Source: an uncultured Comamonas sp. (GTDB lineage: Bacteria; Pseudomonadota; Gammaproteobacteria; Burkholderiales; Burkholderiaceae_C). Taken from it: a stretch of 64,000 nt of DNA. The DNA lies in assembly GCA_947306475.1 (NCBI GenBank), contig CAMZGS010000013.1, positions 1-64,000 on the forward strand, given 5' to 3'. The notes below the pieces were generated by a model that worked only from the letters and a program-made list of their open reading frames with translations, did not search any database and was not told where the DNA came from. Shown one piece after another: positions 3,475-35,199 of this stretch. How positions within the stretch are numbered: position 1 is the first letter of the stretch; every line of letters starts with the position of its first letter. The position numbers and the translations under genes were made by a program.

Positions 3475-4425
3475 ATGACCACAGCACAACAATTCCAAAC
3501 CACCATCATCGAATCCGATTTCGATGGCATCGCGCCCGTGTATCAGCACTACGCTGGCCAACACCAGCCCCAACTAGCCTACATCCGTATGGATGAGGAT
3601 GGCCAAATCGACACTTGGGTAAACGGTGAAATCGGCAACGCTGTGCCAGCTTCGGTCTGGCATAACCGCACGCTGACTTGGCGCGTGCCCGCCGACGCTC
3701 GGGGCGAAGCCCTGCTGGCCTTTGTCAAAGACCACCAGCGACTGTTTGAGCGCGTTTGGCAGGGCCACAAAGTAGAGTGGAATGGAAACAACTGGGTTGG
3801 AAAGCTGACCGAAGACGCAAAAGCCGCTTACGAAGAAATCGAGGCGGCATGCAGCGACATCGAGACGATTGATGTGATCTGCATGCAAGACTGGTTGCGC
3901 GCTGGTCGCAACAACCACTTCACGGACTTCTGGGACGGCGAGTACACGCTGGACGAAGCGGCCAGCAAAGCCGAAGACGATGCACGCGAAGCCCTGAGCG
4001 AGGGTGTGTGGGTGAAAGACCCCCAGTCCGCACGAAGCGAGCTGCTGGAGTGGGCTGCAGACGAGTTCCGCAACCACCCGGAGCGCCTTTCTGCCCGCCA
4101 TTTCGAGGCGCTTATCGACGAGTGTGAAATCAGCTTCGAGGAGGCTGTAGAGGTAATCAACGACGAAGAGTTGGACATCTCTCTGCGCAGAGAGATAAAT
4201 GATGCTGGCGCGCAGGAAATCTTGGCGTTCCTGCAGGCCAGCCACAAGCGCGGCGCCGCGCTGGGCGATAAAGAGCTGGCGGCCTGGGTTGCTGACGCCG
4301 ACTTTCAGCTAGCGGAGGGGAACACCCCCTCTATTGAGGTGAGGGCTGCAGATAGTGTGCATGGGCACGCATGCACATACACAGTGAGCGATGCAGGCGT
4401 GTCCGTGCGCGCCACACAACTCTAA
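3475..4425 (+). CDS. Hypothetical accessory phage protein (316 aa)
   Basis: Long ORF with SD (caaggagagcaccATG); no family recognised. Confidence 0.7.
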   Translation: MTTAQQFQTTIIESDFDGIAPVYQHYAGQHQPQLAYIRMDEDGQIDTWVNGEIGNAVPASVWHNRTLTWRVPADARGEALLAFVKDHQRLFERVWQGHKVEWNGNNWVGKLTEDAKAAYEEIEAACSDIETIDVICMQDWLRAGRNNHFTDFWDGEYTLDEAASKAEDDAREALSEGVWVKDPQSARSELLEWAADEFRNHPERLSARHFEALIDECEISFEEAVEVINDEELDISLRREINDAGAQEILAFLQASHKRGAALGDKELAAWVADADFQLAEGNTPSIEVRAADSVHGHACTYTVSDAGVSVRATQL

Positions 4426-4484
4426 CCACCCATCGTCACACCGCGCCCCACGGGGCGCACACAAACCAGAAAAAGGAACAAACC

Positions 4485-4880
4485 ATGAGCGCAATCACTG
4501 AGCTTTACGCCCCCGCGGGCCGTCATTTCGCCCGACTGGAGCTGGCAGACCGCCAGCGTTATGAGGCGTGGCTGCTGGAATGCGGCGCACAGAAGGTGGC
4601 CGAAGAAGTGGCGGCAGAGCGCGGCCACGAGGGGCTGGCAGCAGAGTACTTTGAGGCCGGATTCAATGGCTGCAACGCCGCGGTCGTGAACCCTCGCAAG
4701 GATGGCCTGGAGCCGGTGTTCCGCGAGGGCCGCCGCGCTAAAGCCGAGAAAGGCATGGCCCAGCGGATCCGCGCTGCTGCGGCTGAACTGCGAGCCCAAG
4801 AGGGCTACAGCCTGGACGACTGGCTGGAGATTGCATATCCTTGCAGCCCAGTGCCATGGCGCTCTGCATTCGGTGGGTGA
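4485..4880 (+). CDS. Hypothetical phage protein
   Basis: MSAITELYAPAGRHFARLELADRQRYEAW...; upstream aaaaaggaac SD. Confidence 0.6.
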   Translation: MSAITELYAPAGRHFARLELADRQRYEAWLLECGAQKVAEEVAAERGHEGLAAEYFEAGFNGCNAAVVNPRKDGLEPVFREGRRAKAEKGMAQRIRAAAAELRAQEGYSLDDWLEIAYPCSPVPWRSAFGG

Positions 4881-4931
4881 GATTTTTCTGCCGCACAGGC
4901 AGCGTAAAAACAAACACAGGAGAGCACCATC

Positions 4932-5258
4932 ATGAGCGAAATCACCGCATGCAGCGTCAGCAACCCCCAACAAGAAAGCCCAGGGATATGGGCAGTGACA
5001 GTAAGTGTGGACGGAGTGCCGCACAAGCTGCGCTTCGACGTAAAGGAGTCGGTAGTTCAGGGTTTTTATGAAAACCCTGAACTACAGGCACTGCTCCCGA
5101 AAGAAAAGGGCGCGATGTTCAACTTCCAATCGATTGTTGGACGGGCGTATCGCGTCCTGCAGGATCACATAGCACCAGCGGGAGCGCCTGCCTATTCATT
5201 TAGCTATCGGCTGGCAACGGGAATTATCCGCAGGCAAGTTGAAGAATCAGCCGCCTAG
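4932..5258 (+). CDS. Hypothetical phage protein containing an internal perfect hairpin
   Basis: 108 aa ORF, SD aggagagcaccatc. Confidence 0.6.
   Translation: MSEITACSVSNPQQESPGIWAVTVSVDGVPHKLRFDVKESVVQGFYENPELQALLPKEKGAMFNFQSIVGRAYRVLQDHIAPAGAPAYSFSYRLATGIIRRQVEESAA
5052..5085. repeat. Perfect 15-bp inverted repeat, 4-nt loop, inside a coding sequence
   Basis: GTAGTTCAGGGTTTT-TATG-AAAACCCTGAACTAC. Confidence 0.95.
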
Positions 5259-5319: not shown

Positions 5320-5850
5320 TTACAACAATGCCCCCTGCACAGACGCCTCGGCCACCTTCAGCTTCAATTGCTGATTCTCAGCCTCCAACTCTGCCAGCCG
5401 CTGGCTCAGCTCCCGCTTGGCTGCTTTCAGCTCCAGCATCAGATCCTGCGACACCAGGCCAAACTGGTACTTCAGCTCCAGCATGGCCACCAGGGAATAG
5501 CTACCGCTCAGCCGCTCGGCAATCTTGCGTGCCACACGCGGGTCTTCCACCACCAGCTTGCCGCAGTTTTCCACTTCGATGACCAAGGAGCCATCATCCA
5601 AGTCAGAAAAGTGTACGGTCTGCATCTTGCCCACGCCCTTTACCAGCTCATACACGCCTGGGCGCACACGGCGTAGCGTGCCCTCCTCGTCCACCATGCG
5701 GCTGACGTGATCGTCAATGATGTGGTACGACAGGCCCGTGGTCGCCTGTAAATTCTCTCGTGTGATGAGATGCTCCAAGCTGGTCAGCTCCTGAATGGCA
5801 TCCAGGACGCGCTGGCGGCTTGTGCGGTTGTCTTTTGTCTGCGTCGTCAT
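5320..5850 (-). CDS. HTH-containing phage protein with C-terminal coiled coil
   Basis: MTTQTKDNRTSRQRVLDAIQELTSLEHLITRENLQATTG...; start chosen at internal Met. Confidence 0.6.
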   Translation of the reverse strand: MTTQTKDNRTSRQRVLDAIQELTSLEHLITRENLQATTGLSYHIIDDHVSRMVDEEGTLRRVRPGVYELVKGVGKMQTVHFSDLDDGSLVIEVENCGKLVVEDPRVARKIAERLSGSYSLVAMLELKYQFGLVSQDLMLELKAAKRELSQRLAELEAENQQLKLKVAEASVQGALL

Positions 5851-14937: not shown

Positions 14938-15276
14938 ATGAAAGCAGTCTTTGTAGAGCTACCGGCCTTTGAGCGATACCGCGCTGACTATCTGGACGAC
15001 GAGAACTTTCGCAACCTGCAAGACAGCCTGATGAAAAACCCAGAAGCCGGTGATGTGATCGAAGGCACAGGCGGCCTGCGCAAAGTACGCCACGCAGACC
15101 CTAGACGGGGCAAAGGCAAGCGCGGAGGCTTGCGAGTGATCTACTACTGGTGGGATGGCAAGAACCAGTTTTGGCTCTTCACCCTCTACGACAAAGACGA
15201 ACTTGATGACTTGAGCCCAAAGCAGAGGACTGCGCTCAAGACCATGCTCAAGGCAGAACTGGAGGCTCGACAATGA
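14938..15276 (+). CDS. HigB/RelE-like toxin
   Basis: AFERYRADYLDDENFRNLQDSLMKNPEAGDVIEGTGGLRKVRHADPRRGKGKRGGLRVIYYW. Confidence 0.8.
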   Translation: MKAVFVELPAFERYRADYLDDENFRNLQDSLMKNPEAGDVIEGTGGLRKVRHADPRRGKGKRGGLRVIYYWWDGKNQFWLFTLYDKDELDDLSPKQRTALKTMLKAELEARQ

Positions 15277-15587
15277 CCAAACGCGACATCTTTGCAGAAC
15301 TGACCGAAGGATTTGAAGCCTTAAAGGAACAGCGCACCGGTAAGCGCACCTTGCGCACCCATGAGGTGCAGATCAAGCCAGAGGTGAAAATCGAAGCAGC
15401 TGAGATCGTTTCCCTGCGGGATAGCTTGGGCCTGTCCCGCGCTGTGTTCGCTCGCTATCTACGCACCAACCCTCGCACCCTAGAAAACTGGGAACAAGGC
15501 CGGGCCAAGCCCAACGCCCAGGCTGCGCTCATCATGCGCCTGGTTGAAAAGTATCCAGACACGGTCAAGCGTCTAGCTGCCGTCTAA
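15273..15587 (+). CDS. HigA-like HTH antitoxin
   Basis: IVSLRDSLGLSRAVFARYLRTNPRTLENWEQGRAKPNAQAA; overlaps the toxin gene. Confidence 0.8.
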   Translation: MTKRDIFAELTEGFEALKEQRTGKRTLRTHEVQIKPEVKIEAAEIVSLRDSLGLSRAVFARYLRTNPRTLENWEQGRAKPNAQAALIMRLVEKYPDTVKRLAAV

Positions 15588-15675: not shown

Positions 15676-15927
15676 ATGACACAACAGAATACTGTCGATC
15701 GCGCATACATGCTTGCCGACGAATGGATTCACACCATTCTTTCAACCAACCCCGAGCTGCTAGTCAGCAAATTGCATGGGAGTATCTCCAGCGGCGATGG
15801 TAGAGCACCCACACCCAATCTCGACGGGGCTGCAAACTTGGCGAAGACCTTGGCTGAATTTCGGTCACAGCTAGCAAATGCTCTCATCAGTCAGCACCAT
15901 CCTGACTACGACCAGTCTGACGCTTGA
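15676..15927 (+). CDS. Hypothetical phage protein
   Basis: MTQQNTVDRAYMLADEWIHTILSTNPELL... Confidence 0.55.
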   Translation: MTQQNTVDRAYMLADEWIHTILSTNPELLVSKLHGSISSGDGRAPTPNLDGAANLAKTLAEFRSQLANALISQHHPDYDQSDA

Positions 15928-16059
15928 GTTCTGCTTGGCAACCTTTGTAGGCTTGCGCCACAGCCACGCCAAGCCCCCAGCCATCTGGCTCACCACGGCA
16001 ATCCACCTTGAGCGCCGCGATCAAGGGCAGTAAAAACTTCAACATCTCATCCTCCAGAC

Positions 16060-16085
16060 CGCCCACCTTGGGCGGTTTTTTTGTG
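16060..16085 (+). terminator. Intrinsic terminator
   Basis: ccgcccaccttgggcggtttttttg. Confidence 0.8.
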
Positions 16086-16124
16086 CCCAGCCCATCCAGG
16101 CACAACGGCAGTTTAACAAAAAAT

Positions 16125-16166
16125 AAGGCTTTGCCTATTGACTTTAATTAGGCATCGCCTTACATT
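16125..16166 (+). promoter_or_regulatory. Rightward early promoter TTGACT-N17-TACATT with two repressor-type operators
   Basis: -35 16138-16143, -10 16161-16166; AAGGCTTTGCCTA 16125-16137 and TAGGCATCGCCTT 16149-16161. Confidence 0.7.
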
Positions 16167-16171
16167 ACGTC

Positions 16172-16846
16172 CATCGCAGCAAACCACTGCACTCCACTCC
16201 CCCGGAAGGAAGGCGCGCCGAAGGGGGTAAAGGCCCAGCAAGCCGGTGGAGGTCAGCAATCCAGATGTTCTGGCCCTTGCTGGCAGCAGGTGGATGCATC
16301 ACGCGATGGGCGCCAAGTGATCGGACTGACCGCCCTGGATCTTTAACAGGCAGATGTGTGATTGAGAGAGGCGGCGGCGTGGAAGGACACGCCCCATACA
16401 CCGAAGGGCCGGCCAGCCCTGAACAAGCTGGCGTCCCGTGGCTGTCACGGCTCCGAGTGGCGCGGTGGATGTGGTGATTTCGCAGCAGGTATCAAGCCCT
16501 GCCCGCCTCCCTCAATCACACGGAAGCCCCGCGAAGGATGAACAGGCGCACTTAGTAGAAAGCGCCCTGCCCCCGTGCACCACGGCAGAAGAAAAAGTGG
16601 GTGGCCGAGCCCGTTGACCTACCGGAACCGAGGCCACAAGCGAGGCGGCCTGAGCTGGCACCAGCCAGGAGATGCAGGCCGCGCCCCTGGGGTCGCAACC
16701 AAGGGAGAGAGAGTTGACGACAGGCGAGTTACCCGGTCAAGAGAAGCACTGCAGTGCACGGGGTACTTTGGGCGTGGCGAACCCTTAACGCAAGCAATCC
16801 AGCCTTCAAACACACGCTCCGAGCAATCGCGGCGGGTTTTCTTTTT
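16172..16846 (+). ncRNA. Candidate large structured RNA / structured leader
   Basis: ~700 nt without a convincing ORF; 18/19-bp long-range helix 16356-16374/16503-16521 with nested helices. Confidence 0.5.
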
Positions 16847-16885
16847 CCCCAATCACCCCAATCAAACCCCAATCACCACCCCAAT
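16847..16885 (+). repeat. Four CCCCAAT repeats running into the start codon
   Basis: CCCCAAT at 16847, 16856, 16867, 16879. Confidence 0.8.
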
Positions 16886-17294
16886 GGAGATGCCCATGCT
16901 TTTGCTTTCCCGCTTCAGCGCCCCAGCGCTGCCTGTTGAGCCGCACATCGCGGCAGCTGCTTACTACGACCGACAGGAGGAGTTGGCCGACGAGCACGAG
17001 GCACAGCAGAAGCGCGCCTACGAAACCTTGATCAAGGACTTCAGCGCATCGACGCCGGACACCTGGGCCAAGGCGCGCACGATCGGACGCGCTCGCACGT
17101 CGCCAGACGAGCTGCTGTCCGATGCCATTTATCTGCACGAAGACAAGAGCGTGCTTGATGCGTTCAAGACGCTGATGTGCAGCGAAGCCGCTGCAGAGCT
17201 GCGCGAGGCCGTGGCCAGCTACTACGCGGACAAGCACCCCGAGGACTTCGATCACAACAGCGACGATGGGGAAAAGGAGTTTCCCCATGCATGA
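16884..17294 (+). CDS. Hypothetical phage protein
   Basis: MEMPMLLLSRFSAPALPVEPHIAAAAYYDRQEELADEHEAQQ...; start chosen after the leader. Confidence 0.6.
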   Translation: MEMPMLLLSRFSAPALPVEPHIAAAAYYDRQEELADEHEAQQKRAYETLIKDFSASTPDTWAKARTIGRARTSPDELLSDAIYLHEDKSVLDAFKTLMCSEAAAELREAVASYYADKHPEDFDHNSDDGEKEFPHA

Positions 17295-17436
17295 CTGCTT
17301 CACATCAGCACTGCTGGCCCAGTTCCTGGCCGTCCAGCCAGAGCCAGAGCCCGAAATCAAGCCCCTGCCTGCGCCACCCGAGCTGGCGCGCGAGCAGCTG
17401 CAGCCCATCGAAGAACACCAGAGCGAAGCAATTTAG
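17287..17436 (+). CDS. Small hypothetical phage protein
   Basis: MHDCFTSALLAQFLAVQPEPEPEIKPLPAPPELAREQLQPIEEHQSEAI, overlaps previous. Confidence 0.4.
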   Translation: MHDCFTSALLAQFLAVQPEPEPEIKPLPAPPELAREQLQPIEEHQSEAI

Positions 17437-27908: not shown

Positions 27909-27985
<77 letters not shown>

Positions 27986-35122: not shown

Positions 35123-35199
35123 TGGTCGGAGCGGCGGGATTCGAACTCGCGACCCTCTGCTCCCAAAGCAGATGCGCTACCAGGCTGCGCTACGCTCCG
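35123..35199 (-). tRNA. tRNA-Pro (TGG)
   Basis: Cloverleaf CGGAGCGTAGCGCAGCCTGGTAGCGCATCTGCTTTGGGAGCAGAGGGTCGCGAGTTCGAATCCCGCCGCTCCGACCA. Confidence 0.95.

Follow-up and report, generated by a model that had tools for sequence, protein, structure and literature searches.

The long non-coding stretch that opens the early genes of the prophage described here is a real structured RNA, and the long-range helix at its centre proved to be the stem of a separate, very widespread tRNA-like element. This central domain apparently represents an RNA family without an earlier description. It borrows the building plan of tRNA, yet it is neither a tRNA nor a tmRNA by the features that define them. Both the structure and the novelty are well supported. 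The statement as a whole, that the element is a tRNA mimic or scaffold acting early in infection, we hold to be evenly balanced.

The leader of the early operon

The window, the 64,000-nt stretch of DNA analysed here, is taken from contig 13 of a 2.9-Mb genome. The initial annotation had proposed a near-consensus promoter (TTGACT-N17-TACATT) at 16138-16166, and a site scan confirmed it as the sole sigma-70-like site within 15900-17300, with 9 of 12 matches where 0.3 such sites are expected from shuffles. Transcription of the leader would start at about 16172-16174. The description of this promoter as repressor-controlled is supported by an inverted repeat whose arms, TAAGGCTTTGCCTA (16124-16137) and TAGGCATCGCCTTA (16149-16162), straddle it; similar repeats were seen by eye around the leader promoters of L048, L012 and L030. 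The upstream unit is closed by a terminator at 16056-16078, and no terminators were found inside the leader. A RelE-like/HTH toxin-antitoxin pair (14956-15587) lies just upstream of the leader promoter, with the terminator in between. The features of the leader, all on the plus strand, are as follows.

16124-16162, plus strand: operator-like inverted repeat TAAGGCTTTGCCTA / TAGGCATCGCCTTA, straddling the -35 box
16138-16166, plus strand: sigma-70 promoter of the leader, TTGACT-N17-TACATT (site scan; promoter equally placed in homologous leaders)
16172-16308, plus strand: 5' domain starting with CATCGCAGCAA, closed by CATCGC (16172-16177) and GCGATG (16303-16308), pairing by eye
16356-16521, plus strand: tRNA-like domain (module C), including the extended 18/19-bp outer helix P1 (model R1, covariation)
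16368-16374, plus strand: 5' strand of the inner 7 bp of P1, partner 16503-16509 (family-wide conserved helix, 94-100% paired)
16375-16376, plus strand: two-nucleotide linker CG (CG in 187 and CA in 16 of 203 copies)
16377-16392, plus strand: P2 hairpin GCGTG-GAAGGA-CACGC, D-arm-like, with GG in the loop (stem covariation in copies found via P3 only)
16393-16484, plus strand: 92-nt variable insert replacing the anticodon arm and ending in a conserved A (16484)
16485-16502, plus strand: P3 hairpin GCAGG-TATCAAGC-CCTGC, T-arm-like, flush on P1 (pair changes, loop conservation)
16533-16703, plus strand: middle domains, comprising module B and later hairpins that include GTGGCC/GGCCAC and GCGGCCTG/CAGGCCGC (homologous DNA in L011, L014 and L435)
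16714-16804, plus strand: conserved 3' domain (module A), with a TTGAC/GTCAA helix, a variable hairpin, a GGG/CCC helix and UACCC/GGGUA (13-sequence alignment, pair counts)
16884-17294, plus strand: first early gene after the leader, 136 aa, phrog_35287, a putative protein without assigned function

About 715 nt without a convincing gene separate the promoter from the ATG at 16884, in agreement with the ORF-poor stretch of about 700 nt reported initially. Several ORFs do overlap the leader, among them a GTG-started frame (16575-17294) that is in the same frame as the ATG at 16884 and crosses the leader's 3' part; related leaders show no evident conservation of it. Homologous leaders, which differ by whole domains and indels, have no evident common reading frame; a coding leader was rejected on this ground. 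The prophage early genes 3' of the leader encode a RecT-like annealing protein, a RecE-like exonuclease and a C5 DNA methylase.

A blastn search of the leader against 401 genomes of the family, the follow-up that had been suggested, gave matches in 7 genomes, in pieces, and further leaders were found in viral contigs via the string AGGCGAGTTACCCGG. Together, these genome matches and viral contigs supplied 12 further copies of the 3' domain (module A) in viruses and prophages. The 12 related leaders have a common layout of a repressible promoter, exchangeable structured domains, the conserved 3' domain and a first early gene, with a ribosome site and the early gene placed 3' of module A. Upstream of the related module A copies there is typically a promoter, in many cases with operator-like repeats, and a start near CATCGCAGCAA, a string that lies 3' of the promoter in L012, L014, L030 and L048. 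Since these 12 leaders keep module A while the domains preceding it differ, the leader is a mosaic of structured domains that can be exchanged, a property that the initial annotation had missed along with the separate nature of the element to which the long-range helix belongs. A blastn search with the whole leader found no match among phages and plasmids, because the domains are exchanged and the insert is unique; searches with short conserved strings worked.

The folding energy of the whole leader is not exceptional (z = -1.5, with 3 of 20 shuffles equally good) and therefore does not prove its structure; the proof is supplied by covariation among homologues. All helices listed in the initial annotation were found within one base of the positions given there, and its view of a structured leader was borne out in two domains. 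The covariation score reached 0.558 for the domain at 16356-16521, against 0.126 in shuffled and 0.066-0.139 in slid controls (alignment A1, which was chosen partly by P1 and P3 pairing, so that its counts are favourable by construction), and 0.183 for module A, against 0.051 shuffled and at most 0.049 slid (13-sequence alignment). Module A also contains UACCC/GGGUA, a candidate pseudoknot whose invariance speaks neither for nor against pairing. The mid-leader helices appear compensatory by eye, in too few sequences for a formal test: L011, L014 and L435 have other complementary pairs in place of GTGGCC/GGCCAC and GCGGCCTG/CAGGCCGC. Of two DNA patterns for module B searched in viral contigs, the first returned 0 matches and the second 4 records, 2 of them real leaders.

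Further domains and conserved sequences were observed in the related DNA. In L013 (9100-9400) and L048 (600-850, leader orientation), the slot of the tRNA-like domain is occupied by different structured domains whose closing stems are long and similar (GTGAGATGTGATGGGTG.../...CACCCTTCACATCTCA). After module A, a conserved domain GAGCCTCAGAGCGTCATAGCTTGGGC...GGAGCCGGA..GTAACCGG is present in L010 (about 5330-5450), L013, L028 and L048 and absent in the window. The intergenic spaces after the first early genes of L012 and L014 both contain GATGGTGAAxGxGCAGTTGCGATGCGC..GTGTCTAGGG(A/G)ACTGGAAGCGGCCAC.., with several unrelated cores between CCATCAT and ATGATGG stems; further RNA elements without a name are likely.

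Anatomy and covariation of the tRNA-like domain

The domain enclosed by the long helix (16356-16374/16503-16521) has a far wider distribution than the leader. A home-made model (R1), built from 62 copies and giving rough E-values, detected this domain in the window at 16363-16514 with 78 bits and an E-value of 3.5e-15. Throughout the family the order is P1, CG, the P2 hairpin, the insert, A, the P3 hairpin and, flush with it, the return strand of P1.

P1 was evaluated without bias in 203 copies defined by P2 and P3 only. Pairing at positions 1-7 amounts to 0.95, 0.99, 0.99, 0.98, 1.0, 0.97 and 0.94, followed by 0.78, 0.62 and 0.51, so that P1 is conserved as a helix for exactly 7 bp and falls towards background beyond; a swapped-partner control at positions 5-7 gave pairing of 0.39-0.43. 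P2 stems vary yet pair (GCGTG/CACGC, GCACG/CGTGC, GCGTT/AACGC, GCGCT/AGCGC, TCGAT/ATCGA and ACCGC/GCGGT), while the P2 loop, GAWGGA, is nearly constant in copies found via P3 only. In P3, all 5 pairs are changed on both sides in alignment A1, and the loop is UAUCAAGC or variants of it (U-N-UCRAGY), with the U54-, U55-, C56-, R57-, A58- and Y60-like positions kept. All three helices covary strongly; a tabulation of P2-P3 kissing-loop pairing gave no covariation. Among pairs 2-7 of P1, G-U occurs 31 times and A-C 6 times, an excess which indicates that the element acts as RNA of this strand.

The frame has the topology and dimensions of tRNA. The 7-bp stem and the flush 5-bp hairpin give a 12-bp coaxial rod and probably an elbow, the latter of which would form between the D-loop-like and T-loop-like hairpin loops. 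About a quarter of the copies, including that of the window, have 10-24-bp stems, a length expected to impede RNase P. Since its stem is extended to 18/19 bp, the window copy probably stays in the leader as a fixed domain instead of being cut out as a free RNA. In L056, L361 and L011 an extra hairpin stands in the P2 loop right before the GG (e.g. GGAGCGAAAGCATAAGGA), an addition that the variable part of a tRNA D-loop could accommodate.

In place of an anticodon arm, the family carries an insert of 43-190 nt (median about 80), and 187 of 210 inserts have no relative among the others. Copies with identical P1 may have unrelated inserts (L058, L068 and L076); the window and L030 have P1 in common, and the L030 insert is common to L138. 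The ordinary folding energy of the inserts is barely below that of shuffles (mean z -0.3). A terminal helix ending right at the conserved A is strongly favoured (z = -7.4), a signal that fades strongly or vanishes deeper in the insert, and a pseudoknot in which an early hairpin loop pairs with a strand of the terminal helix scores z = -5.8, compared with -2.7 for nested structures. Inserts are often predicted to be pseudoknotted, and on these folding predictions the fast-changing insert in place of the anticodon arm is probably a pseudoknotted one. Its hypervariability suggests diversifying selection or exchange of cargo, as phage-host conflict would predict.

Distribution and genomic context

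The string CGGCGTGGAWGGACACGC was searched in viral contigs and in GTDB genomes, copies being counted among the matches listed; with two strings taken from the other hairpin, 29 and at least 120 viral stretches were obtained. The element was found in more than 200 loci among the matches listed, a lower bound. The viral contigs are often fragments. Its carriers are phages and prophages of Proteobacteria, Acidobacteria, Planctomycetes, Verrucomicrobia, Chloroflexi and Cyanobacteria. Copies in GTDB genomes were counted as real above 40 bits, with many matches of 23-33 bits excluded as chance occurrences of an 18-nt string; among the matches listed, they come from Bordetella, Chromobacterium, Comamonas, Janthinobacterium, Acetobacter, Methylobacterium, Sphingomonas and Humidesulfovibrio and from assemblies labelled Anaerolineales, Acidobacteria, Phycisphaerales and Verrucomicrobiota. 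Random genome samples contained the element in 7 of 301 genomes of the family and 3 of 399 of the phylum, a rarity expected of a phage feature.

Isolated phages with the element are Caulobacter phage DMCA, Pseudanabaena phage Pan3, Acidovorax phage AP1, Alcaligenes phage QDWS595 and Komagataeibacter phages phiKX1 and phiKX2, and in every case the copy lies in unannotated intergenic space. Bordetella phage PHB04 gave a partial match only. In this phage (L332), a 1.5-kb gap without annotated genes (3661-5166) surrounds an element-like motif on which the full model fails to score, and a gene for an RtcB RNA ligase is situated about 4-5 kb upstream. Our own gene caller is unreliable on short ORFs in GC-rich DNA, so that long ORFs and the annotated isolates were used to evaluate coding overlap: 28 of 211 copies overlap an ORF of at least 150 aa, compared with 57% of random segments.

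A tRNA or tmRNA gene lies within 500 nt of 34 of the 211 copies, where 10.3 are expected, and 33 of these 34 are on the same strand. Nine copies are located 5-13 nt upstream of a tRNA, some are in tRNA arrays and two adjoin a tmRNA gene. Predicted promoters peak immediately before the stem, with 8 sites whose -10 box ends 5-9 nt 5' of the 7-bp stem against about 0.7 per 5-nt bin elsewhere. This peak, some 6 nt before the stem, suggests that some copies are genes in their own right, with the stem as their 5' end. A minority of all copies lie in tRNA arrays or have a promoter of their own; other contexts include operon ends and convergent genes. In L113, the Rfam Burkholderiales-2 RNA (RF02917, 93.5 bits, 1542-1615) was detected, with a tRNA-like element copy about 900 nt away.

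Possible function, alternatives and relation to known RNAs

The structural part of the reading we favour, a tRNA-shaped frame with a variable insert, is very probable; the functional part is tentative. A host factor able to read the tRNA elbow or the 12-bp rod would recognise or mature the constant frame, candidates being RNase P, tRNA-modifying enzymes and a tRNA-targeting defence nuclease. The insert, as the part that diversifies, would bind or block its target, and the RNA may act early as a decoy or scaffold, presenting variable cargo to a host tRNA-handling factor. Recognition by readers of the elbow or rod is suggested by the constancy of the frame, and a target under diversification by the changing insert. 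It is conceivable, though less likely than not, that a natural tRNA scaffold is in use among phages of many phyla: its constant frame would be recognised by the host tRNA machinery or by tRNA-targeting immunity, and it would display interchangeable, fast-diversifying, pseudoknotted cargo that blocks or decoys host factors. If true, this would be a general RNA system of counter-defence or control, overlooked since sequence searches fail on the insert. Represented by more than 200 copies in isolated phages and metagenomes, the element is a testable object where phage annotation is blank; the conserved frame says where to look, namely among the readers of the tRNA elbow, and culturable carriers (Caulobacter DMCA, Komagataeibacter phiKX1 and phiKX2, Alcaligenes QDWS595 and Pseudanabaena Pan3) allow testing.

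The main rival for the whole leader, which we consider unlikely, is antitermination of the early operon: by analogy with HK022 put, the leader would bind and modify RNA polymerase so that early-operon terminators are read through, its domains being alternative versions of the site. HK022 put acts as RNA behind early promoters, and the related leaders likewise lie directly behind a repressible early promoter, with exchangeable structured domains in fixed order and, in the window, a leader free of terminators. However, the element is also found by itself, behind a promoter of its own, and within tRNA arrays, where early-operon antitermination is unexpected; the 7 + 5 bp tRNA geometry is no known feature of put, and the hypervariability of the insert is left unexplained. 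A cis-acting attenuator or riboregulator that senses a metabolite, tRNA or protein on behalf of the adjacent gene seems quite improbable. It would suit the start codon and ribosome site that inspection of the flanks placed soon 3' of many copies, this leader included, but not the diversity of contexts (tRNA arrays, operon ends, convergent genes); an alternative terminator was not found in this leader, and a sensor should keep a conserved pocket rather than a hypervariable insert.

The initial annotation had also suggested a GOLLD/ROOL-like ornate RNA, of a kind that assembles into a large homo-oligomer. Its structured, ORF-poor leader behind a repressible early promoter stands, while membership in this class is now very improbable. 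The leader is long, phage-borne, structured and multi-domain, and GOLLD and ROOL are structured RNAs that form homo-oligomers according to PMC12286853; yet an Rfam scan that included both families gave no match at gathering score on the window and nothing useful even at E<=10 on 15950-17000, the domains are exchanged freely and the tRNA-like domain also occurs alone. Identity with GOLLD or ROOL was accordingly rejected on homology. Equally remote is an element acting at the level of DNA (an attachment site, an attC-like recombination site or a remnant of tRNA-targeting integration), which would account for the integrase genes near the copies in Caulobacter phage DMCA and Komagataeibacter phage phiKX2, for the T-arm-like motif and for the exchange of inserts. 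An attC or attachment site was rejected because of the excess of G-U over A-C (31 vs 6), the promoters placed to fire at the stem, the same-strand bias with tRNAs and the covariation of three separate helices.

No family of Rfam 15 matches the element, ARAGORN gives no call, and a search of open-access papers yielded nothing on the conserved strings or on phage tRNA-like RNA. On the window, the Rfam tRNA model and ARAGORN call only the genes for tRNA-Met (27909-27985, plus strand) and tRNA-Pro (35123-35199, minus strand), and on 13 element loci only separate tRNA genes. The element shares with tRNA a 7-bp acceptor-like stem (P1, 94-100% paired), a 2-nt linker, a D-arm-like hairpin with an A-x-GG-A loop (A14, G18, G19 and A21), a T-arm-like 5-bp hairpin flush on the acceptor (P3, 5 of 5 pairs covarying) with a U(N)UCRANY loop (T54, T55, C56, R57, A58 and Y60, with an extra base after T54), and a place in tRNA arrays. 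It differs in that an insert of 43-190 nt without common sequence replaces the anticodon arm, position 8 is C rather than U (linker CG or CA), Y48 is missing (the base before the T-arm-like hairpin is A), the D stem has 5 bp, the P3 loop has 8 nt (T-loop + 1) and the stem is sometimes much longer; an encoded CCA is missing, being no commoner after the stem of family copies than elsewhere.

tmRNA likewise combines a tRNA-like frame with a long pseudoknotted insert in place of the anticodon region, but the inserts found here are far too short and variable for a tag ORF plus four pseudoknots, the D-arm-like hairpin is truly stemmed, and neither Rfam nor ARAGORN calls the element a tmRNA. Bacterial Y RNA (YrlA) is a small RNA that imitates tRNA and has some phage or tRNA-array contexts; it resembles the element in these respects and differs from its three-helix frame and hypervariable insert. 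The Rfam search gave no match of a Y-RNA model to the element, in a library that possibly lacks a YrlA model. GOLLD, ROOL and OLE are, as the leader is, large structured RNAs without ORFs, GOLLD and ROOL being partly in phages, whereas the leader matches them in neither sequence nor structure and is built of exchangeable small domains. HK022 put is also a structured RNA directly 3' of a phage early promoter, but is not known to have a tRNA-like geometry. In engineered tRNA scaffolds, cargo RNA replaces the anticodon arm of a tRNA frame for RNA expression; these are man-made, and the element would be their natural counterpart.
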